Shown in pieces: positions 481 to 30,974 of a stretch of DNA of 64,000 nt; position 1 is the stretch's first letter, and every line of letters begins with the position of its first letter. Location of the stretch: the NCBI GenBank assembly GCA_030706405.1, contig JAUZOO010000005.1, forward strand, positions 1-64,000. Direction: 5' to 3'. The notes below the pieces were generated by a model. That model had not been told where the DNA came from. It made no database searches and saw nothing but the letters and a program-made list of their open reading frames with translations. A program made the translations under genes and the position numbers. This DNA is from Bacteroidota bacterium (GTDB taxonomy: Bacteria; Bacteroidota; Bacteroidia; Bacteroidales; JAAUTT01).

Positions 481-1221
481 GTGGCAAATAGCTTGGTAAT
501 TATTCCTACGTACAACGAAAAGGAAAACATCGAAAAGATTATTCGTAAAGTATTTTCATTACCTAAAGAGTTTGATATTCTGATTATTGAGGACAATTCA
601 CCTGACGGAACAGCCCAAATTGTTAAGAATTTACAAACTGAATTTTCGACCCAACTCTTCATGGTCGAAAGAAAAGGAAAACTTGGATTGGGAACGGCCT
701 ATATTGCCGGGTTTAAATGGGCTTTAGCTCATAATTACGAATATATCATCGAGATGGATGCCGACTTTTCACATAATCCGGATGATTTAATCAGTCTTCA
801 GGAGGCTTGTTCTGTTGGTGGAGCCGATTTATCGATTGGTTCGCGCTACAAATCGGGGGTTAACGTGGTTAACTGGCCAATGGGAAGGGTATTAATGTCG
901 TACTGTGCTTCAAAGTATGTAAGGTTCATAACCGGAATGAACATTAATGATACCACTGCCGGGTTTAAATGTTACACACGAAGGGTGTTGGAAAATATTG
1001 ATCTGGACTCAATCCGGTTTAAAGGTTATGCCTTCCAGATTGAAATGAAATTTACCGCATGGAAGCTGGGTTTTACCTTGGAAGAAGTCCCCATTATCTT
1101 TACCGATCGTAAAGCCGGAGCCTCGAAGATGAGTGGTGGTATCTTTAATGAAGCATTTTGGGGTGTAATAATCATGAAGTTACGTAGTTATTTTAAACGG
1201 TACCATAGAAAAACCTTGTAA
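481..1221 (+). CDS. Polyprenol monophosphomannose synthase (GT2)
   Basis: The enzyme is expected to transfer mannose from GDP-mannose to a polyprenyl phosphate at the cytoplasmic face of the membrane, giving a lipid-linked donor for glycan or protein glycosylation. The 246-residue protein is a single GT-A domain. It has the N-terminal VIIPTYNEKEN, IEDNSPDGT (36-44), the GLGTAY donor-binding segment (69-74) and the metal-binding MDADFSH (92-98). There is no C-terminal GtrA-like membrane part, so it is the short soluble form. The start is GTG, giving MANSLVIIPTYNE, exactly where the family begins. It lies 44 bases upstream of dihydroorotase on the same strand, an order I associate with Bacteroidota. 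Family assignment is firm; the exact polyprenol is not visible. Confidence 0.9.
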   Translation: MANSLVIIPTYNEKENIEKIIRKVFSLPKEFDILIIEDNSPDGTAQIVKNLQTEFSTQLFMVERKGKLGLGTAYIAGFKWALAHNYEYIIEMDADFSHNPDDLISLQEACSVGGADLSIGSRYKSGVNVVNWPMGRVLMSYCASKYVRFITGMNINDTTAGFKCYTRRVLENIDLDSIRFKGYAFQIEMKFTAWKLGFTLEEVPIIFTDRKAGASKMSGGIFNEAFWGVIIMKLRSYFKRYHRKTL

Positions 1222-2674: not shown

Positions 2675-5600
2675 CTATTCCTGCTTCACATTTCCGGTTC
2701 GTTTTAATACGCCCCAGTGAGCCAACTCGCCTTTAATTGCTTTCAGGTACGATTTTATCAATACAAAGAACAACAGTTGACGATATATTATCCGTTGAAT
2801 GAACATATATGCCGCTATTTTAGGTGTAAACTTCTGCCCATCGAAGCTGTAAGCGACAAATGAAATGACACAATCGACAGCAAAGAAGCCAAAATACGCG
2901 ACAATTACCTCGGGCGCTGTTTTGGAGAAAAGCGCAAAGATTGTCAGGATATCGACAATAGGCGAAAACAGGGGTAATATCAATTGATATATCAGCACAT
3001 TGGGCAATACAATCCATCCCAAATTTGGTTTGCGGGTATTGAACAGCAAATCGCGGTGTTTCCAAAAACTTTGCATGATGCCAAACGACCAGCGGAACCG
3101 CTGTTTCAGAAACATTCGGGTCGATTCCGGGGCTTCTGTCATGGAGATGGCGTCGTTACAAGTACGTACGCGGTATCCGGCACGTAAAAAACGCAACGTT
3201 AAATCGCAATCTTCGGCCAAGGTATCGGTGGTAAAAGCGCCGACTTCGAGCATTGCCGATTTACGGAAAGCCCCAATAGCCCCGGGCACAACCATAATAG
3301 AATTTACATAATCGAAAGCCAACCGATCGAAATTCTGACTGGTAGTATATTCGATGGACTGCCAGTTGGTAAGCAGGTTTACTTTATTTCCCACTTTTAC
3401 ATTCCCCGCTACCGCAGCAACCTGCGAATCACCAAAATAAGGCATTAACATTGACACCGCATCTGGTTTAAGCAATGTGTCGGCATCGATACATACCAGG
3501 AATTCCCCTTGGGCATGTTCAATTCCAAAATTTAATGCAGAAGCTTTCCCTCCATTGGGCTTCGTCAATACCGTAACTTTTGGATTATTATCAAAAGCAT
3601 CTTTAACCAGTTGGAAAGTGCGGTCTTTTGAGCCATCGTCAACAAACACGATTTCAACGTTGGGATAATCACATTTTAACAGATTTTCGATGGTTCTTAC
3701 CACATTTACCTCTTCGTTATAAGCAGGAACTATAATGCTTACCGAGGGGTTTCCTGCCGAAATAGACCGGGGGGAATGCTTTATTTTGTAACGATTACGA
3801 ATAGCAAGCACGGCAATGCTCAGGATACGGCCAAGCACCAATATCAATGCTACAAAAAAGACTCCGTACAGAAAATGCTGGTAGAAAAAGGTAAACTCAA
3901 AAAGCGCAGAATCGGCCATTTCAGCATAGTGACGCATCTCACCTTTCACCGGAGGCATAACATCGTCGCGGGTTTTGCCCAACAATTGGGAGATCGTTAC
4001 AAACGTGTATCCTTTTTTCTTGAAAAACTCAATAATCCTCGGAAGGGCTTTCACTGTTTCAGTACGGATACCTCCGGCATCGTGCAACAAAAGGACACTT
4101 CCATTTTCCTCCTGCTTAATTGTCCGGGCAACGATGGTATCTGCAGAAACTCCTTTTTCCCAGTCATTCGGGTCGATAGAAAGGCCAACACTTATATAAT
4201 GTTCGTTACAAGCTGTTGCAAGCGGAAGAATCTGGTAGATATTTTCCGGATCGGAATCGGTATTATAAGGCGGGCGAAAAAGAATGGTGCTGTGCCCCAA
4301 CATACTTTCGAGCAAAATACGGGTCAAACTGAGTTCAAGACGAATGCGCGAGGCCGAAACTTCTTCGAGGTTGGGATGACTAAAGGTATGGTTTCCGATT
4401 TCATGGCCTTCGTCGTAAACCCTTTTCAGTAAAGGGATGTTGGCTTCGGCATTCACACCAGTCACAAAAAAGGTGGCATGAACATTATTATCCCGAAGTA
4501 TTTTTAAGATTTTGGGGGTGTACTCATCGTTGGGTCCGTCGTCAAAAGTGAGGGCTATCTTTTTCGTGGCATCGCCGGAGCGTTTAATCACAAAGCTGGT
4601 GGGCAAGGTCTCGTAGGTTTCTTCCGATATTAATTTATCATCTGCAGCCACTTCTATTTTAACTTTACCGGGGGTTGGAGAACTGACAATATCAAGGATT
4701 TCGCCTTCACCAATAAAATCGACATTGTATGGCGACTGAATGTTCCTCAGTTTCGAAAAATCAAACGGATGAAGATTTAGGGAATCATCTTGTAGCGATT
4801 TATCATAAAACTGCCACAGACGGGTATCCTCCGCCCCCAAGTACCACACGGCCACACCGGCAGTTCCAAAATCTTCGGAGGCCCTGATTGCATTAAAGCT
4901 GGTTGCGGCATCGGTAAAACAGACCTCATGCTTTTGGTTATTCCCGTCGGAATAAGAATACCGGAGGTTGTACGAATTGTTATCAAAATCAATGTTGCTA
5001 TTATTGGCAATGGCACGGTTGATGGCCTCCTGGTAAGTAACATCTTCGCCCTGATAACCAACCTGCCAGTCGTACCCGTAAGCAGCGATACACAAAACCA
5101 CTTTCTCTGCCGAAACCTTATTGCACACATCGTCCATGGCTTTCTCTATCCACGCCTGCTCCGCAATTGGTCCCGGCATACTGCTGGCGTTATGCTGGTC
5201 GTACCCCATCAAAAACAAAAAATCGTTATACTGCGCCAGTTCTTTGTAATTATAATCGGGGTTAAATGGCACAATATCCTGAGTAATGAGGTATCCCTTC
5301 TGGTTAAGTGCCTGATATAATTCCTTCTGAAACTGAATCAGATGTTCGTCGGTTTTTTCGGTTAATTCTTCAAAATCGACATTAACGCCCTGAAACTGAT
5401 ATTTTGCCAATGTCCGTAACAGACTTTGAATAAACTTCGTTCGTTTTTCCTTTGAGATTATTATCCGGTGAACATTCCGACCGTTCCATTTCTGATTAAA
5501 ATAATTTGATAACATCGGGACGATAGCCACCCTGTGTTTTCGCATCACATTCAGGGCTTTTACATCAATATCCGTGGCAATGGTATCACTTTTATCGCCC

Positions 5601-7433: not shown

Positions 7434-7797
7434 TTACCCAACAAGCACTGGAGGTCACCAGACAGAGAGGGAAATATCCCCGACAAAAACAGATGAACTA
7501 TTGGCAAGCATGTGAATATTTTCGCAAACATAGAAAGCCATTTAGCAAAGTGGGGAACACCTTCGGCAGACATAGATAAAACCCCGATAGACAGGGGAAC
7601 CCTTTCGGCAGGCATAGACGACCCTCTGACAAAGAAGGAAATAGTTTCGCAAATATTGAAACCTGTTTAACAAAGTGGGGAATATTTTCGGCAGACATAG
7701 CTGAATTTCAGACAGAGCAGAAAATCTCGCTGATAGATATTGAACAACATCAGACAAAATAGGGGGTGTTTCCGACAAGAACAAAAGAGAGTAAAAA
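7434..7797. repeat. 21-bp periodic imperfect tandem repeat, locus A
   Basis: About 17 degenerate units run through the gap between the divergent GH8 and mprF genes. The recurrent CA (or TA) dinucleotide inside cores such as GGCAGACATAG, CGCAAACATAG or AACAAAGTGGGG recurs at 7442, 7463, 7484, 7505, 7525, 7546, 7567, 7588, 7609, 7630, 7650, 7671, 7692, 7713, 7734, 7755 and 7776: a 21-base step with only two 20-base exceptions. All three minus-strand frames stay open over much of it, but no start or coding signal is convincing. I read it as non-coding or as a decayed repeat. The rest of the 7329-7902 gap contains nothing else I recognise. Confidence 0.75.
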
Positions 7798-22853: not shown

Positions 22854-24278
22854 TTACATATAAAAAGCATAAGATTCTTTTGGTTGCTCATTTTCACCAA
22901 GATATTTCATTATTTCTCCTACACGTCTAGCACAGCCAATAGTTATAGGATATTTGTTGTCAAATTGTGTATTATTCCAATTCATTTTTGTCAATCCAAG
23001 AACTTCTTTACATACCGTCTTAACAGATGAAACAGAACTTATTATTCTAATTTCTAGAGGAGCAGGAATGTACATACCTGGGAATGTTTGATACTGGTGC
23101 ACAGAACCTCTTGTATAAAGTATATGTCTTTGCTCTGATAATGAAAACAACGAGCCTCTAACTGGTGGATATAGATTATTCCTAAAGAAACGCAAGTCGG
23201 TTTCCATAAGCGTTAGAATATCATATTCTCTTATGCCCAAGTCTTGCATTGCCTGTGTAAAACCATCCAATTCATCTTCATAGTATTTTGAAGTCTTATG
23301 CAAGACCACTCTACCTGGTATTGTGCCTGTTGCAAATTTGTATTTGGTCAAAGCATCTTTAATTAATGTTAAAGATTGCTCATAAGTTAAATGAGGTTTT
23401 TTATCGTCTTTGTCTTCCAACACAGGAGTACCACGTAAAATCACTCCTTTCCCATTTTCATTGAATATTTGAGCTAAACTGGTTTGAATGGTCTTTTTGT
23501 CTCTACTCCTATAAAAACTAATACCTACAAAACAAACTTTAGGTTTATTTTCATCAACTTCTAATTTCCAAGGAATTGTTTGTAGACCTTTATAGTATAA
23601 TGCGGTGCAAAAATTCCATGCTTTTGTTGCAGCGTCTTGTGATTTATTATTATCGTGCAACACATATTCACGTAGCAATTGAATCGGTGTGTTGTAATGC
23701 ATTGCACGAGCTTTTAATGCTCTTCTAAAATTCAATTCCAATTCAGATTCTTCATTATCCTCTGCATTGCTTTCTACTGGCTCATCATCCTTGTTCTCTT
23801 TTACAATTTTTCCTTCAAAACTCTTGGGAATAATGCAAATAATAACATCACAATTTTTTATATCGGACAGAAATCCAATATTTTCAGAATATAATTCAAC
23901 AGCATCAATAATTTTTTTATCTCTATTAAGCTCTTTTAAAATAGGCTTTATGTCATTGGGCGAAAGTATTCTTTCGTAATTAGTTCCGTAAATTAACTTT
24001 GCACAAAACCCTTTATCCTGATTAAATCCAGGAAAGGATTTAAATAAACCTTTTTGTTTTCCTTTAGGACTTGCAGGAATATAACTTTCAAAACGTTTTA
24101 GCCAGTTTTTTAAATTTTCAACATCTTCTTCAATGCCTATTATCCCAAGTAATAATTGATTTTTCCTTGCTTCAATTACGGTATCATATACATCTAATCC
24201 TGCAATACCTTCTCTTGGACAAATACTTTTGCCTTTACCAAAAAATAAATATGGTTCCTGTATATACTCCGCTTTCAT
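22854..24278 (-). CDS. Short prokaryotic Argonaute (MID-PIWI)
   Basis: A 474-residue short pAgo expected to bind a guide and sense complementary nucleic acid, then activate its partner. The MID region has the ALYYKGLQTIPWKLE signature (226-240), which leads into PIWI. PIWI begins KVCFVGISFYR (248-257), where the first catalytic Asp position is S254. It continues VVLHKTS..YEDELDGF (324-340) and IPAPLEIRI (404-412), ending in YAFYM. There is no PAZ or N domain and no DEDX tetrad, so it should not slice. The start overlaps the DUF4062-APAZ stop by four bases (24275-24278, ATGA), indicating translational coupling. The family reading is strong; whether the guide is RNA or DNA is not visible, although SPARTA relatives use RNA guides against DNA. 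Confidence 0.9.
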   Translation of the reverse strand: MKAEYIQEPYLFFGKGKSICPREGIAGLDVYDTVIEARKNQLLLGIIGIEEDVENLKNWLKRFESYIPASPKGKQKGLFKSFPGFNQDKGFCAKLIYGTNYERILSPNDIKPILKELNRDKKIIDAVELYSENIGFLSDIKNCDVIICIIPKSFEGKIVKENKDDEPVESNAEDNEESELELNFRRALKARAMHYNTPIQLLREYVLHDNNKSQDAATKAWNFCTALYYKGLQTIPWKLEVDENKPKVCFVGISFYRSRDKKTIQTSLAQIFNENGKGVILRGTPVLEDKDDKKPHLTYEQSLTLIKDALTKYKFATGTIPGRVVLHKTSKYYEDELDGFTQAMQDLGIREYDILTLMETDLRFFRNNLYPPVRGSLFSLSEQRHILYTRGSVHQYQTFPGMYIPAPLEIRIISSVSSVKTVCKEVLGLTKMNWNNTQFDNKYPITIGCARRVGEIMKYLGENEQPKESYAFYM

Positions 24279-25666
24279 ATTCCAAATAAATCTACATTCC
24301 CATTTTCGTCTTTTAGCTTCTTCTGAGCTATAACATCTTCAAGATTATTCCAAATAGTATCTGGAACAATTGGTGCAAAATCAAATTTCTCGATATTTTC
24401 AAGCTTAATAAAAGGATATTCCTTGTACTCGCTAAATAACGATTCCATTTGCGAAGGCTGTAGATAACGTAAAATGAAATTATAATGATTAAATACGTGC
24501 ATGTTTCGTTCTGTTTTTTTTAACCATTGAATATTTTTATATGCTAAATGACAAACACTAAAATTCGCCCAAAGGAAAATCCAGTCGGGTTTTATGGATA
24601 AATACCAATCATCGTCCAAGTTTATAAAACTTGTACGAAACGCAAGACATTTTAAATTAAATACTTTACTCTTATCTTTTAAATCATACCTTATATCAAC
24701 AACTTTTCTTGTAGCACTCTTTTTAGTCTTAGTCCATTCAATTGACCTTGGCTTCCATCTACCTATATCATCCTGTTGTATAGGAAGAAAAGCAAATAAC
24801 TTTTCATCTTTAAACCATTTAATTTTCATTTTATGGAGTTTGGCTTCAAGGCATTTTTTTAAAAGGTATTTGAACTGGGATAGTTGGTCGGCTGATAAAT
24901 TATAAAACTCATCACAAGAAAAAGGTTCTGCCGTTCCCTTGTCAATAATTTTAACCAAGCCAATTGTGTCATTCTGAAGATTGTGAAATGTGATTATTTT
25001 TCCATTCCAAATTATCCAATCGTGTGGAAAAGAAATATTTTGCATATACAATGCAGAAACTACATAATCGTGTAAGCTTGGTTTATAGAATGGCCGCTTT
25101 CTTTCTTTGTTATATTGCTTAACCGCATTTTTATCAATATTCAAATCTGCAATGTACAAATGACTTGGGAATTGAATTTTTACAAGATTAGAGTAAATAG
25201 ATTCAGTCCTATTAAAATACTCATTCTGTTTTTTATCAATTTCCATTTTTAACGCCTTCTCTAATTCTGTTCCTAATTCAAAGGCATCTTGTACAGTTTT
25301 TCTGAAATAATTTGGTTCGACCTTGCCCTCAAATTCTTTCTGGAAAGAATCTTTAGTATAAGTTGTATTTATGACAATTATTGGAATATTCAAACTTCTA
25401 GCAGTTTGATATTCTAACTCGGTAATAGACTCTTTTCCCTCAGGTTGCCAACCATAACGACCACCTAGAATCAATACATAAATATCTGATTCCATCACTT
25501 TATTTAAACAAGCCGTAAGAGAATCCGTACTTTGGGCTTCCATTGTGAACTCAGACATTATAGGAAAACCTCCGACCTTTTCAACAGCTCTCAAAGCAGC
25601 TTTTCTCTCGTTAGTTAAATCAAATATTGTGCTGCTTATGAATATTTTAGGCTGAGTAATAAACAT
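24275..25666 (-). CDS. DUF4062-APAZ effector partner of short Argonaute
   Basis: A 463-residue two-domain protein. N-terminal DUF4062 (about 5-110) has KIFISSTIFDLTNER (7-21), VLILGGRYGWQPEG (64-77) and ITELEYQTA (81-89). E85 sits where TIR NADases carry their catalytic Glu, and DUF4062 is a TIR-like fold by pattern. A linker (about 110-165) is followed by APAZ (about 166-450), with WIIWNGKIITFHNL, WFKDEKLFAFLPI, WTKTKKSATRKVVD, LKCLAFRTSFINLDDDWYLSI and the conserved 'KKTERNMHVFNHYNFI' run (383-398). APAZ replaces the missing N-terminal half of the pAgo and holds the complex together. The gene is first in a two-gene operon, with a 4-base overlap to pAgo. By analogy with SPARTA the effector would be switched on by target binding and cause cell death or dormancy. 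The reaction is inferred, most likely NAD(P) hydrolysis. Confidence 0.88.
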   Translation of the reverse strand: MFITQPKIFISSTIFDLTNERKAALRAVEKVGGFPIMSEFTMEAQSTDSLTACLNKVMESDIYVLILGGRYGWQPEGKESITELEYQTARSLNIPIIVINTTYTKDSFQKEFEGKVEPNYFRKTVQDAFELGTELEKALKMEIDKKQNEYFNRTESIYSNLVKIQFPSHLYIADLNIDKNAVKQYNKERKRPFYKPSLHDYVVSALYMQNISFPHDWIIWNGKIITFHNLQNDTIGLVKIIDKGTAEPFSCDEFYNLSADQLSQFKYLLKKCLEAKLHKMKIKWFKDEKLFAFLPIQQDDIGRWKPRSIEWTKTKKSATRKVVDIRYDLKDKSKVFNLKCLAFRTSFINLDDDWYLSIKPDWIFLWANFSVCHLAYKNIQWLKKTERNMHVFNHYNFILRYLQPSQMESLFSEYKEYPFIKLENIEKFDFAPIVPDTIWNNLEDVIAQKKLKDENGNVDLFGI

Positions 25667-26987: not shown

Positions 26988-27911
26988 TTATCGCTTTTCG
27001 AGTTTGAGTTCAACCACTGTTAACTCGGAGCACGAAACGGCAACCTCAGTAAAGCAATCCTTAAAACCAGGTTTGGAAGCTTGTAAGCGGTACATTCCAT
27101 CGCCCATCGATTTAACGTTAAAACCGCCTTTGTCGGCGCTAACCTTTACAATTTTCCCATCCGGCAGTGCAGGAGTGCCCTCAATGGCTACTATGGTAAC
27201 AATAGCACCAATTACAGGTTCGTTGGTAGCGGCATCAAGTACCGTTCCACGCATCGCGATAGAGCTTTTACCTGTCATCACAATCTTACGCGATCGTTGG
27301 TAAACCTCGTAAAAATCGGGATGATCCATCCGTACAATCTCAACCAGGGCGTCGAGCTTTTTGAGCGCTTCGTCGGCTTTGGCAAACAAATCGGCTACCT
27401 GACTGGTAACCTGCGATTGTTTCATCAACTCGGTACGCGGAGCATTAACCACCTCTAAAAACAAGTTACGCCGTTCCTTTTGCTGGGTCTGGGATATGGC
27501 ATTAATCCCAAAGTTACTTAATAGATCCAGTTTCTCGTCAGCACGTTTAAGTACCAAATCAACACAGTTTAGCAATGCCATATCCGACATAGCACGCAAT
27601 TCGGTTTGAGTCACTTTTACCTCGGCCAATAACCTTGCATCATTGGAAACTTTGGCAAAAGCAATGATTTTATTGGTATTGTCATACGTAAAATTAATCA
27701 GCCTTTCCCTATGTTCTCTTTTTATGGCGGTTATCCCGCTTAAATCAGACGACTGGTCGGTGGTTAACAATAGAATCTCTCGAATAATGTTTTCCAGTTC
27801 ATCCAATGTTTCGGGGAAAAACGGTAATAAGGCAATAATTGCCGGATAAGACCTCAGGCTAGGTGCCAGCCCCAGAAGCATCTTTAAATAACATGATTGG
27901 TAATTCGTCAT
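26988..27911 (-). CDS. Helical protein with C-terminal carboxypeptidase-regulatory-like domain
   Basis: 307 residues. Residues 1-220 are mostly helical with repeated hydrophobic heptads (such as ETLDELENIIREILLL and ADEALKKLDALVEIV) and no signal peptide. Residues about 222-305 form a CarboxypepD-regulatory-like beta domain: GTVLDAATNEPVIGAIVTIV, DKGGFNVKSMGDGMYRLQASKPGF and a final VVELKLEKR. This domain is common in Bacteroidota receptors and surface proteins, but its presence on an apparently cytoplasmic helical protein is unusual. Function unknown. Codon and GC use is closer to the core than to the AT-rich genes on its left. Confidence 0.7.
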   Translation of the reverse strand: MTNYQSCYLKMLLGLAPSLRSYPAIIALLPFFPETLDELENIIREILLLTTDQSSDLSGITAIKREHRERLINFTYDNTNKIIAFAKVSNDARLLAEVKVTQTELRAMSDMALLNCVDLVLKRADEKLDLLSNFGINAISQTQQKERRNLFLEVVNAPRTELMKQSQVTSQVADLFAKADEALKKLDALVEIVRMDHPDFYEVYQRSRKIVMTGKSSIAMRGTVLDAATNEPVIGAIVTIVAIEGTPALPDGKIVKVSADKGGFNVKSMGDGMYRLQASKPGFKDCFTEVAVSCSELTVVELKLEKR

Positions 27912-28123
27912 TTTTTTGGGTTTAAGGGTTTACAATGAAAAATCAAATAATTAAAACTAAGATAATAATTATTAGAAATATGATTTATCCAAAATCGGGA
28001 TAATGCATTATGAATTTAACGGGTTATTTTATCCGGCAAGTTGTCAATAGCCGGTCGTTGGCCGATATCACCGGGTTTTATCCACCTCCCACACCTTATT
28101 TACCCCCGTTTTAATCTGTTTAG

Positions 28124-28396
28124 AGATGCGTACTTTTTGTTTATAGATGCTCTCTATCGTTTTATAGAAGCGTACTTTTTGTTTATAGATAGAATAAATA
28201 TGTTTGCAGATACATTTATTCTGTTTTTAGATGCATTCTTTTTCGGTTGACATGCATACTTTCCTTTTTCAGATACGTACTTTTCATTTTTAGATGCCTC
28301 CTACCGCTGTTGAGATGCGTCCTTTTCTATTTGAGATCCCTCCTTTCCATTTTCAGATGGGTGCTTTTTGGTTTGAGATCCCTCCTTTTTTAATTA
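28124..28396. repeat. 21-bp periodic imperfect tandem repeat, locus B
   Basis: Thirteen units with the core AGATGC(G/A)TACTTTT begin at 28124, 28145, 28166, 28187, 28208, 28229, 28250, 28271, 28292, 28313, 28334, 28355 and 28376: an exact 21-base step throughout, although the units themselves vary widely. The consensus differs from locus A at 7.4-7.8 kb, but period, length and intergenic setting are the same. One plus-strand frame encodes degenerate heptads (for example LFIDALY, RFIEAYF), but it has no supported start and stops early. Confidence 0.85.
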
Positions 28397-28442: not shown

Positions 28443-28631
28443 TCAATCATGTTAACCCTGTCTTTTTTTCATTTCTGGATGTAGACAGGATTACAGGATT
28501 AACAGGATTAAAAGAAACCACTCCTTCTTTAAGGATGATTTTGGGCTGTTACTAATCAATATTTTACAAGTAACATATTTCTTTACTATTGAACGGACGT
28601 TAATATCTTGTCAATCATGTTAATCCTGTCT
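28443..28631. repeat. Direct and inverted copies of a TTAATCCTGT element
   Basis: TCAATCATGTTAAYCCTGTC occurs at 28443-28462 and 28611-28630 (one difference). Between them, at about 28483-28510, GACAGGATTACAGGATTAAC and a further AGGATTA form an inverted, tandem version. This short ACAGGATTA family is scattered widely in bacterial genomes; its role is unknown. Confidence 0.65.
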
Positions 28632-28763
28632 GTTCAGTTTTTCTTATCACCTGCCGCTACATCTTAACCTAGGGGCGATATGCCTGGGAATGGGGGCTAC
28701 CCGTCTTAAAGAGAAGTTTTGTGGGCGTCTTTTCAGGGTATAACTTTGAATGAAGAAACAAAA

Positions 28764-28796
28764 TAAAAGCCCGTATTCCTGAGAACACGGGCTTGG
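28764..28796 (-). terminator. Intrinsic terminator of the DPP III gene
   Basis: AAGCCCGT (28767-28774) pairs with ACGGGCTT (28787-28794). Read leftward, the stem is followed by TTTATTTTG, fitting termination of the minus-strand gene that ends at 28830. Confidence 0.8.
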
Positions 28797-28829
28797 TTAT
28801 AAAGTAACTTTTCGCGATGCGGCTATTGC

Positions 28830-30890
28830 TTAGTTATAGGTCGGCAAAAATGAATGTTGTTTGCCGTATCTCATCATCTGGCCGATGAAATCGACAGGAT
28901 AGGAAACTTTAACATCCGTAATTTTTCCATCCTTCTCAATAAGGGTGTATTCCGGATTAATAAACCCGCTGTAAGGTGCAAGGTTCAGCTTCTTATAGCG
29001 TTCCAGCACTTCTGCGTGCAATTTAGGATCAACCTTAACGCCATAATTTTCAACCAAAGCTTTGCCGCCTTCAAAATCGCCTTCGGATTTGATGCGCTGT
29101 ATTTCTTTAAGCAATTCTCCAAAAAGTTTATGCAGCTTTTCAAAATCGTTAATCACAAAATAGGTTTTGCCATCCTTCACCTTTTTTTCGATAACGTTAT
29201 CGGCTTTACCTTTTTCGAAACACCACGAAGCTATTAACTGGCGGTTGCGCATATGGGCTTCCTCAATGTTTTTGCCGGGCTGTATGCGGGTAAGCTGGGT
29301 CATGAGGCCGTTACGGATGTATTTGATGTATTCGGCTTTGGCCGCGTCGGTCGATGGCAAAAGCTTCAGTTCAACCATTTTCGGGTCCATCAGGTAATAC
29401 AGGGCGAAAAGGTCGGCACGGGCTTCTTCAAGTGCCGACTGGTAATTTTTAAGCGCGTCGGAACTAACTCCCGGAAGTAACTGTCCGGAGCCATGTCCGA
29501 GGCATTCGTGCAAATCGGTGTGCAAATTATCGGTAATGAACCCGTATTTGTTTACCAGATCAACTTCATCTTTGTTGTACGAGAATTCTTCGAGGAAACC
29601 ATTGCCTTTGGCTGCCTGATCGTAAGCATAAGTGATGTTCTCGATAGTTACCGATTTAGAACCGTGTTCCTTACGAATCCAGTCGGCATTGGGCAAGTTG
29701 ATACCGATTGGCGTTGACGGATAGCAATCGCCCCCAAGTTGTGCCACATTAATAACTTTAGCCGAAACTCCTTTTACCTGTTTCTTTTTGAAACGACCGT
29801 CAACCGGCGAATGGTCTTCGAACCACTGGGCATTGGCACTGATAATTTCGGTGCGGTGTGTAGCCTCTACATTCTTAAAGTTAACCACCGACTCCCAGGT
29901 TGCTTTAAGGCTGAGCGGGTCTTCGTAATTTTCGATGAACCCGTTAATAAAGTCGATGTGCGATTTTAAATCGCCCACCCAAATAACATTATACTCGTCC
30001 CATGTTTTAAGGCTTCCGGTTTTATAATATGCAATCAGTTTCTCGATTCCATTTTTCTGCGTTTCGTTTTCGGCAACTCCGGCAGCCTTTTCGAGCCATT
30101 TTACGATTTCTTTGATAGCTGGACCGTAAAGACCGTCGATCTTATATACTTTTTCGAAAACCTTTCCGTTTTCCTTCACTAGTTTGGAGTTCAGTCCGTA
30201 AGAGATAGGCTCCTGATCGGACGGGTTGCGCATTTTATCATAAAACGCTTCGGCATCGTGTTGATTAATGCCTTCGTAAAAATTTACGGCCGAATTAAGG
30301 ACGAGGTCCTTGTCATGTTCGAGGCAAACCTTTTTGGGAAGGATGTTGGGGTCGAACATTACCGGCATAATCTTAGCCAGAAACTTATCGGCAGTTTCGC
30401 CCGATGCAAGCGGAAGCTTTGTCTGATCCGAATTTGCGATCAGCTGCTTAAAATAGTCTTGCGAAAACTCAGGAATGAATTTATCCTTAGCATAATGGTG
30501 GTAGATACCGTTGGAAAACCAAACGCGCTTGGTATAAACCATAAACTTTTTAAAGTCATCGCTATTACGGTCGCCTTTGTAGGTTTCGTAAATGGTTTCG
30601 AGCGTACGGCGAATGGCCAGATTATATTTTCCGTTCTGGTCAAACAAAATATCGCGACCGGCAATGGCAGCCTGACTGAGATAATAAACGAGTTCTTTCT
30701 GTTTAAGGCTCAACGTATCGAATCCGGGAACCTGATAACGAAGAATTTTGAGGTCGGCAAACTGTTCAACAATGTATTTGAACGTGTCAACCTGCTCTCC
30801 GTTTCCGGAAAGTTTGGTTCCGGGCTTACAAGAGAATGACAATGAACTAATCATAATTGTTATAAAAATAAAATTTTGAAATTTTCTCAT
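28830..30890 (-). CDS. Dipeptidyl-peptidase III (M49), lipoprotein
   Basis: A zinc exopeptidase that removes dipeptides from peptide N-termini. From the ATG at 30890 it has 686 residues with a lipoprotein signal (lipobox LSFSC), so it is probably membrane-anchored in the periplasm or at the surface. An upstream in-frame Met would spoil the signal peptide. The zinc motif is HECLGH (461-466), the six-residue form with Cys known from Bacteroides DPP III, and the third ligand lies in EEARAD (488-493). Both halves of the two-lobed fold appear present. It is a single gene with terminator downstream and a CAAATTTA promoter-like element upstream. Identity is secure. Confidence 0.92.
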   Translation of the reverse strand: MRKFQNFIFITIMISSLSFSCKPGTKLSGNGEQVDTFKYIVEQFADLKILRYQVPGFDTLSLKQKELVYYLSQAAIAGRDILFDQNGKYNLAIRRTLETIYETYKGDRNSDDFKKFMVYTKRVWFSNGIYHHYAKDKFIPEFSQDYFKQLIANSDQTKLPLASGETADKFLAKIMPVMFDPNILPKKVCLEHDKDLVLNSAVNFYEGINQHDAEAFYDKMRNPSDQEPISYGLNSKLVKENGKVFEKVYKIDGLYGPAIKEIVKWLEKAAGVAENETQKNGIEKLIAYYKTGSLKTWDEYNVIWVGDLKSHIDFINGFIENYEDPLSLKATWESVVNFKNVEATHRTEIISANAQWFEDHSPVDGRFKKKQVKGVSAKVINVAQLGGDCYPSTPIGINLPNADWIRKEHGSKSVTIENITYAYDQAAKGNGFLEEFSYNKDEVDLVNKYGFITDNLHTDLHECLGHGSGQLLPGVSSDALKNYQSALEEARADLFALYYLMDPKMVELKLLPSTDAAKAEYIKYIRNGLMTQLTRIQPGKNIEEAHMRNRQLIASWCFEKGKADNVIEKKVKDGKTYFVINDFEKLHKLFGELLKEIQRIKSEGDFEGGKALVENYGVKVDPKLHAEVLERYKKLNLAPYSGFINPEYTLIEKDGKITDVKVSYPVDFIGQMMRYGKQHSFLPTYN

Positions 30891-30911
30891 GGCGTTGGAT
30901 TTTAGAATGTA

Positions 30912-30919
30912 CAAATTTA
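30912..30919 (-). promoter_or_regulatory. Possible -7 element of the DPP III gene
   Basis: CAAATTTA is the complement of TAAATTTG (TAnnTTTG), 22 bases before the chosen ATG. A -33 partner is not convincing. Confidence 0.4.
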
Positions 30920-30974
30920 ACATTCCCTACCATCCAATTGCAATGAGGTAAACAAAAAAGACATACATAAGGTT

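Follow-up and report, generated by a model that had tools for sequence, protein, structure and literature searches.

What kind of element is the 21-bp phased repeat that lies between a peptidase gene and the gene of a 307-aa protein in a genome of the Bacteroidales? The repeat, here termed array B, is part of a stretch of 64,000 nucleotides (positions 1 to 64,000 of contig JAUZOO010000005.1, GenBank assembly GCA_030706405.1) that was analysed as a whole and is referred to as the window. A first-pass annotation, made from the sequence alone, had described array B as thirteen intergenic units at an exact 21-base step and had pointed to a second locus, A, with the same period. It had proposed that the two represent a general class of element that may so far be undescribed, to be refuted by the absence of further such loci from the genome and of conservation in relatives, and had hinted at a small RNA. 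We asked whether array B is a coding sequence, an RNA, a passive repeat or a set of DNA sites belonging to a neighbouring protein.

Array B is an intergenic array with an exact 21-bp step

Array B occupies positions 28124..28396 of the window, with no strand assigned, and is composed of 13 units of 21 bp with the plus-strand consensus AGATGCGTACTTTTTGTTTTT. The step is exact, with zero indels despite 75 mismatches. The consensus is matched by 198 of the 273 bases, compared with 131.5 ± 2.9 in shuffled sequences (maximum of 2000 shuffles, 144). Identity at lags of 21, 42, 63 and 84 ranges from 0.60 to 0.65; the window-wide average of the combined lag statistic is 0.281 ± 0.034. When periods of 15-29 were compared, only 21 stood out (0.725), the runner-up being 28 at 0.53. 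The ends of the array are sharp, flanking units dropping to 7-8 matches of 21, and an AGA motif is kept at 12-13 of the 13 units. TRF renders the same region as split 21- and 42-bp arrays.

The array lies 433 bp past the stop codon of a 697-aa peptidase gene (28830-30923, minus strand) and 212 bp ahead of the start of the 307-aa gene (26988..27911, minus strand). Stop codons occur in all six frames and no ORF runs through it. The unit number, step, coordinates and intergenic setting given by the first-pass annotation thus all held. One reading would take the repeat as a degenerate heptad-coding sequence or a peptide gene, as the period is divisible by three (21 = 3 × 7) and short repeat-bearing ORFs are found on the plus strand (28041-28250 and 28247-28393). 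A peptide-coding repeat at array B was rejected because stops interrupt every one of the six frames. The sister arrays described below include periods of 20, 22, 41 and 43 bp, which would shift the frame, and the arrays of homologous loci share no open frame; the coding reading is all but excluded.

A structured RNA at array B likewise gained no support: folding of the two strands gave z-scores of -1.3 and -1.4, no better than shuffles, although pseudoknots are outside the model. The small RNA hinted at earlier is therefore unsupported at this locus. In Rfam nothing passed the threshold; the weaker matches were to Thr_leader, at 28727-28835, beyond the array. A whole-genome BLAST search did not reveal a second copy of array B, and synteny through the 697-aa peptidase neighbour was not kept in the two genomes of the same genus in which that gene was recovered near-complete. 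A short tandem repeat of 8-9 bp (ACAGGATTA) is located just past the array, at 28485-28511. Two genes away from array B, a 463-aa protein (24275-25666, minus strand) matches the PADLOC model Aga_REase-PNTD1-PNTD2, a prokaryotic-Argonaute-associated defence protein, with an E value of 3e-92.

Homologues of the 307-aa gene carry upstream arrays of the same period

The 307-aa protein contains a helical domain (residues 1-207) followed by a CarboxypepD_reg/transthyretin-like domain (residues 218-306; PF13620 match, 4.4e-8). Both are seen in the structure model (pLDDT 88, pTM 0.52). A fold search of the model against the PDB gave matches for the CarboxypepD_reg domain only and none for the helical domain. 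The protein is acidic, with a pI of 6.2, and no phage or plasmid relatives of it were found.

In a first set of homologues of the 307-aa gene, most had a 21-bp array alongside, with a different sequence each time. For a broader test, loci of the 307-aa family were collected from 30 genomes of the order, one per genome, of which 28 had enough upstream sequence, and an upstream array was called at a score of at least 0.45. Arrays were found at 24 of the 28 testable loci, and without exception their best period was exactly 21 or 42. At L364, from a genome beyond the 24, the array is downstream of the homologue; 3' arrays were also seen at L175 and L176. Array quality ranges from near-perfect (0.98) to decayed with the period unchanged. 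The sequence differs at each locus, the GC content of the 21-bp consensus units spanning 0.14 to 0.62, and correlates only weakly with protein similarity (Mantel rho 0.21, p 0.03). At the PGK gene, used as a control in the same order, an array was present at 1 of 26 loci. These association figures come from one order of Bacteroidota and rest on simple ORF and period heuristics, with thresholds of 0.45-0.5 set by eye; the gap between the families and the control is nevertheless large.

Other protein families are paired with arrays of their own period

Across the order, genes encoding DUF6261 proteins are preceded by palindromic arrays of 41-43 bp at 21 of 23 loci, a figure that combines 18 of 22 from automatic scoring, L209 and L216 from reading of the table, and a case in Prevotella nigrescens. 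All five DUF6261 genes in the present genome have an array. In the P. nigrescens case (NZ_CP082843.1, L374:3730-3893), the 41-bp palindromic array overlaps the annotated DUF6261 start (3845), and that start is therefore probably placed too far upstream.

The DUF6261 units contain two dyads, the centres of which are often 20.5 bp apart. Complementarity of the palindrome arms is 0.71 within units and 0.69 across units, and one-sided changes far exceed paired changes, with no covariation. Because the arms change independently, the dyads fit duplex DNA sites better than hairpins. Array sequence shows no correlation with protein similarity (Mantel rho 0.00, p 0.51), and consensus units are unrelated even in protein pairs with a normalised similarity of 0.55. 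The DUF6261 structure is all-helical, several of the proteins are acidic, and a fold search gave no convincing PDB match. Homology between DUF6261 and the 307-aa family was not significant (hhalign probability 2.3).

HU-HIG genes present a similar arrangement, with palindromic arrays of ~22 bp at about 11 of 25 loci by table reading; arrays were present at about 2 of 25 weakly matching ordinary HU genes. The HU-HIG/TIGR01201 (HU_rel) proteins of Bacteroidota, which are expanded in several of these genomes, are the only partners whose fold is known to bind DNA. An HU domain is absent from the 307-aa and DUF6261 proteins, and no known DNA-binding fold of any kind was found in either. A third family, with a helical N-terminus and an fn3-like C-terminus, has three paralogues (L105, L315 and L320) with arrays upstream. 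Separately, a 21-bp array at L305:235-465 is located 5' of a gene (677-1075, plus strand) for a 133-aa protein that matches nothing in Pfam or NCBIfam and may represent another partner family.

The arrays are thus coupled to particular protein families, and the family sets the period, which is 21 or 42 bp in the 307-aa family, 41-43 bp in DUF6261 and about 22 bp in HU-HIG. In most cases the array immediately precedes the gene, and its sequence is free to differ. The conservation in relatives, the absence of which the first-pass annotation had made a point of refutation, is therefore present, as order-wide arrays of the same period and different sequence beside 307-aa homologues, and also beside DUF6261 genes but with the longer period. 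The partner gene and the family-specific period had been missed.

These data bear on a passive origin, in which the array is a minisatellite or MITE-like repeat that expands by slippage and the neighbouring gene plays no part. Arrays do range from near-perfect to decayed, some have been copied around the genome, and in Porphyromonas gingivalis MITEs contain similar arrays (PMC4596501). Against this origin, the frequencies of 24/28 and 21/23 versus 1/26 in the control show that position is not independent of the gene, and the period is family-specific; array B has no indels and no second copy. A plain minisatellite was rejected on the gene-family linkage and the family-specific period, and we consider the passive reading unlikely.

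The array class is numerous within the genome

We scanned 1.24 Mb for periodicity, scoring lag identity at three multiples of each period. Periods of 20-22 and 41-42 bp were in excess, whereas an order-2 Markov control of the same 1.24 Mb gave zero matches. The 2.04 Mb sampled contain about 23 arrays, locus A included, that are non-coding and have a period of 20-22 or 40-42 bp; this extrapolates to roughly 55 per genome. The count was made manually from the table; coiled-coil-like coding arrays were left out, and L105 and L320, flagged as coding only through a spurious frame across the array, were taken in. The absence of further loci, which would have counted against a general class, was thus not borne out, and the proposal of a possibly undescribed class with a common period is supported by these loci together with the arrays at homologues. 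The shared period of locus A also held, although array A (about 7462-7776, no strand assigned) is a weaker 21-bp array of the same class (0.45). It is flanked by a 429-aa gene on the minus strand and an 864-aa gene on the plus strand, with no recognised partner gene adjoining. Periods of 21-24 bp were also prominent in contigs of other Bacteroidales analysed by TRF and the same lag scan.

Most arrays in the genome have their own consensus, and some have no partner gene nearby. Several arrays other than B have copies in the genome at 64-88%, with or without a protein gene: L134/L206, L105/L322, L103/L316, L114/L135, L104/L132/L148/L140, L143/L147 and L336/L146. One dispersed family with a period of ~20 bp (GCAGGACG) is found at L104:5805-6031, L132:12119-12347, L148:581-786 and L140:3826-3931; its copies share both ends (GGCGTCAATA...GCAGGACGAGGTATATCGGGG in L104 and L132), as if the array had been copied whole between sites. 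Two segments ~1 kb apart in the region of a DUF6261-linked array (L204:2312-2480 and 3197-3365) are 93% identical. Intergenic arrays with an 11-bp period (TACGTTTATAT type) occur at L120:11230-11335 and L147:8720-8830 and may be a variant of these arrays with a period of one helical turn.

The evidence favours sites on duplex DNA over an RNA

The gap between array B and the start codon of the 307-aa gene (27912..28123, minus strand) is the expected site of the gene's promoter. Over 37 loci, the promoter-like motif TAnnTTTG occurs at 2.36/kb in the 80 bp that immediately precede the start, compared with 0.36/kb farther upstream, and is absent from the arrays; the gap at locus B itself has no match. 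Terminator-like hairpins of the rho-independent type are rare between array and gene (2 of 37 loci). Column conservation of the 21-bp arrays shows excess power at 21 and 10.5 bp, with the caveat that local smoothness can also give low-harmonic power. Taken together, the variation of the dyads, the folding of array B, the column power and the motif and terminator data favour duplex-DNA sites upstream of the gene's promoter.

An alternative that remains possible is that transcription of the array yields an RNA which, either intact or after cleavage into units, binds the neighbouring protein and controls it in the style of a type III toxin-antitoxin system. In those systems (ToxIN, CptIN and TenpIN), a tandem RNA antitoxin lies upstream of the protein, with a rho-independent terminator between the repeats and the gene (PMC5086642). 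The likeness consists in a tandem array 5' of a small protein gene and in a unit length kept within a family while the sequence diverges, as for ToxI-type antitoxins (PMC5086642); a mild A-over-T skew of the arrays in gene orientation (p 0.025) also speaks for this model. The differences are that a terminator is generally lacking here, neither RNA structure nor covariation was found (array B has no stable fold on either strand), and the proteins are unrelated, no match to a ToxN/CptN/TenpN endoribonuclease being found in Pfam, NCBIfam or PADLOC or by fold. Moreover, TAnnTTTG is enriched between array and start and not before the array, whereas type III systems have a single promoter upstream of the repeats; no transcription data are available. 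The RNA model also gives no reason for the helical phasing.

Discussion

We propose an element of two parts, with array B as its cis-array and the units of the array as docking sites for the neighbouring protein. The coupling of array and family is shown; the mechanism is inferred without binding data, and we give this reading a probability of about 0.45. In the proposed element, an array of phased non-coding units and the adjacent gene of a small helical protein would form one entity. The units would be docking sites on duplex DNA and, because they are two or four helical turns apart, would all look to the same side of the helix. The neighbouring protein would assemble on the array in several copies, and the assembly would control the gene's own promoter, seemingly located between array and gene. 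The 307-aa family would use directional sites, and DUF6261 and HU-HIG dyad sites; orphan copies of arrays elsewhere could mark or organise chromosomal sites.

Besides the linkage to gene families and the results that favour duplex-DNA sites, docking is supported by periods that are multiples of about 10.5 bp and by gene-less array copies in trans. Against it stand the acidic proteins without a known DNA-binding fold, the 3' arrays at L175, L176 and L364, and the partnerless arrays. That the neighbouring protein binds the array is an inference, strongest for HU-HIG, and no binding has been shown. As array sequence tracks the protein not at all (DUF6261) or weakly (307-aa family), it is doubtful that a conserved surface recognises specific sequences in the ordinary way. 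In operator and iteron arrays, a protein binds phased repeats that adjoin its own gene, and the present arrays resemble them in that helically spaced repeats lie next to a gene whose product may bind them. A common motif is the norm among the operators of related proteins, however, and here the site sequence does not follow the protein.

It is also possible that the protein recognises array geometry (regular spacing, curvature or dyads every two turns) and not the bases, so that any repeated 21-mer would suffice. The period fixed per family, the unrelated sequences and the wide range of unit GC agree with such a mode of reading. Units within a locus nevertheless keep a common sequence even when decayed, as with the AGA of array B, which would be needless for pure spacing.

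The nearest described arrays to the putative docking element are BrickBuilt, with a 23-nt unit, and MITEPgRS/MITE464, with a 41-nt unit, both from P. gingivalis (PMC4596501). Like the arrays reported here, they are intergenic tandem arrays of the Bacteroidales with units of about two or four helical turns (about 22-23 or 41 nt, the unit of array B being 21), no spacers and several copies per genome. They differ in consisting of near-identical, species-specific copies within a MITE that has IS5-type inverted-repeat ends (PMC4596501). The present arrays have their own sequence at each locus, with B as a single copy, and are tied to protein families across the order; terminal inverted repeats were not established. 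One of the 19 published BrickBuilt copies, BrickBuilt_14 (PGN_0871/PGN_0872), adjoins the gene of a PF00216 (HU-type) DNA-binding protein (PMC4596501) and may be the gene-linked copy of its array family. This layout is that of the HU-HIG array L143 in our data, which has an orphan copy in L147.

A bolder reading is that the 307-aa, DUF6261, helical plus fn3-like and HU-HIG families all belong to a large undescribed class of array-protein pairs across the Bacteroidales. Each family would read a fixed-period, fast-changing array for locus-specific self-marking or chromosome organisation, with orphan arrays acting in trans. We lean slightly against this joint claim. The pairing itself appears to be undescribed, as no account of it was met in the literature searched; this is provisional, since most subscription papers were outside the search.

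The pairing would unite dozens of intergenic repeats per genome regarded as junk with several functionally uncharacterised protein families in a single system open to testing, with the rule that the protein family fixes the period and leaves the sequence free. The 22-, 23- and 41-nt repeats of P. gingivalis, which have been known for a long time, may thereby gain a partner and a purpose, and DUF6261 a function. If it is true that the protein reads spacing and not sequence, this would be an unusual form of nucleic-acid recognition.
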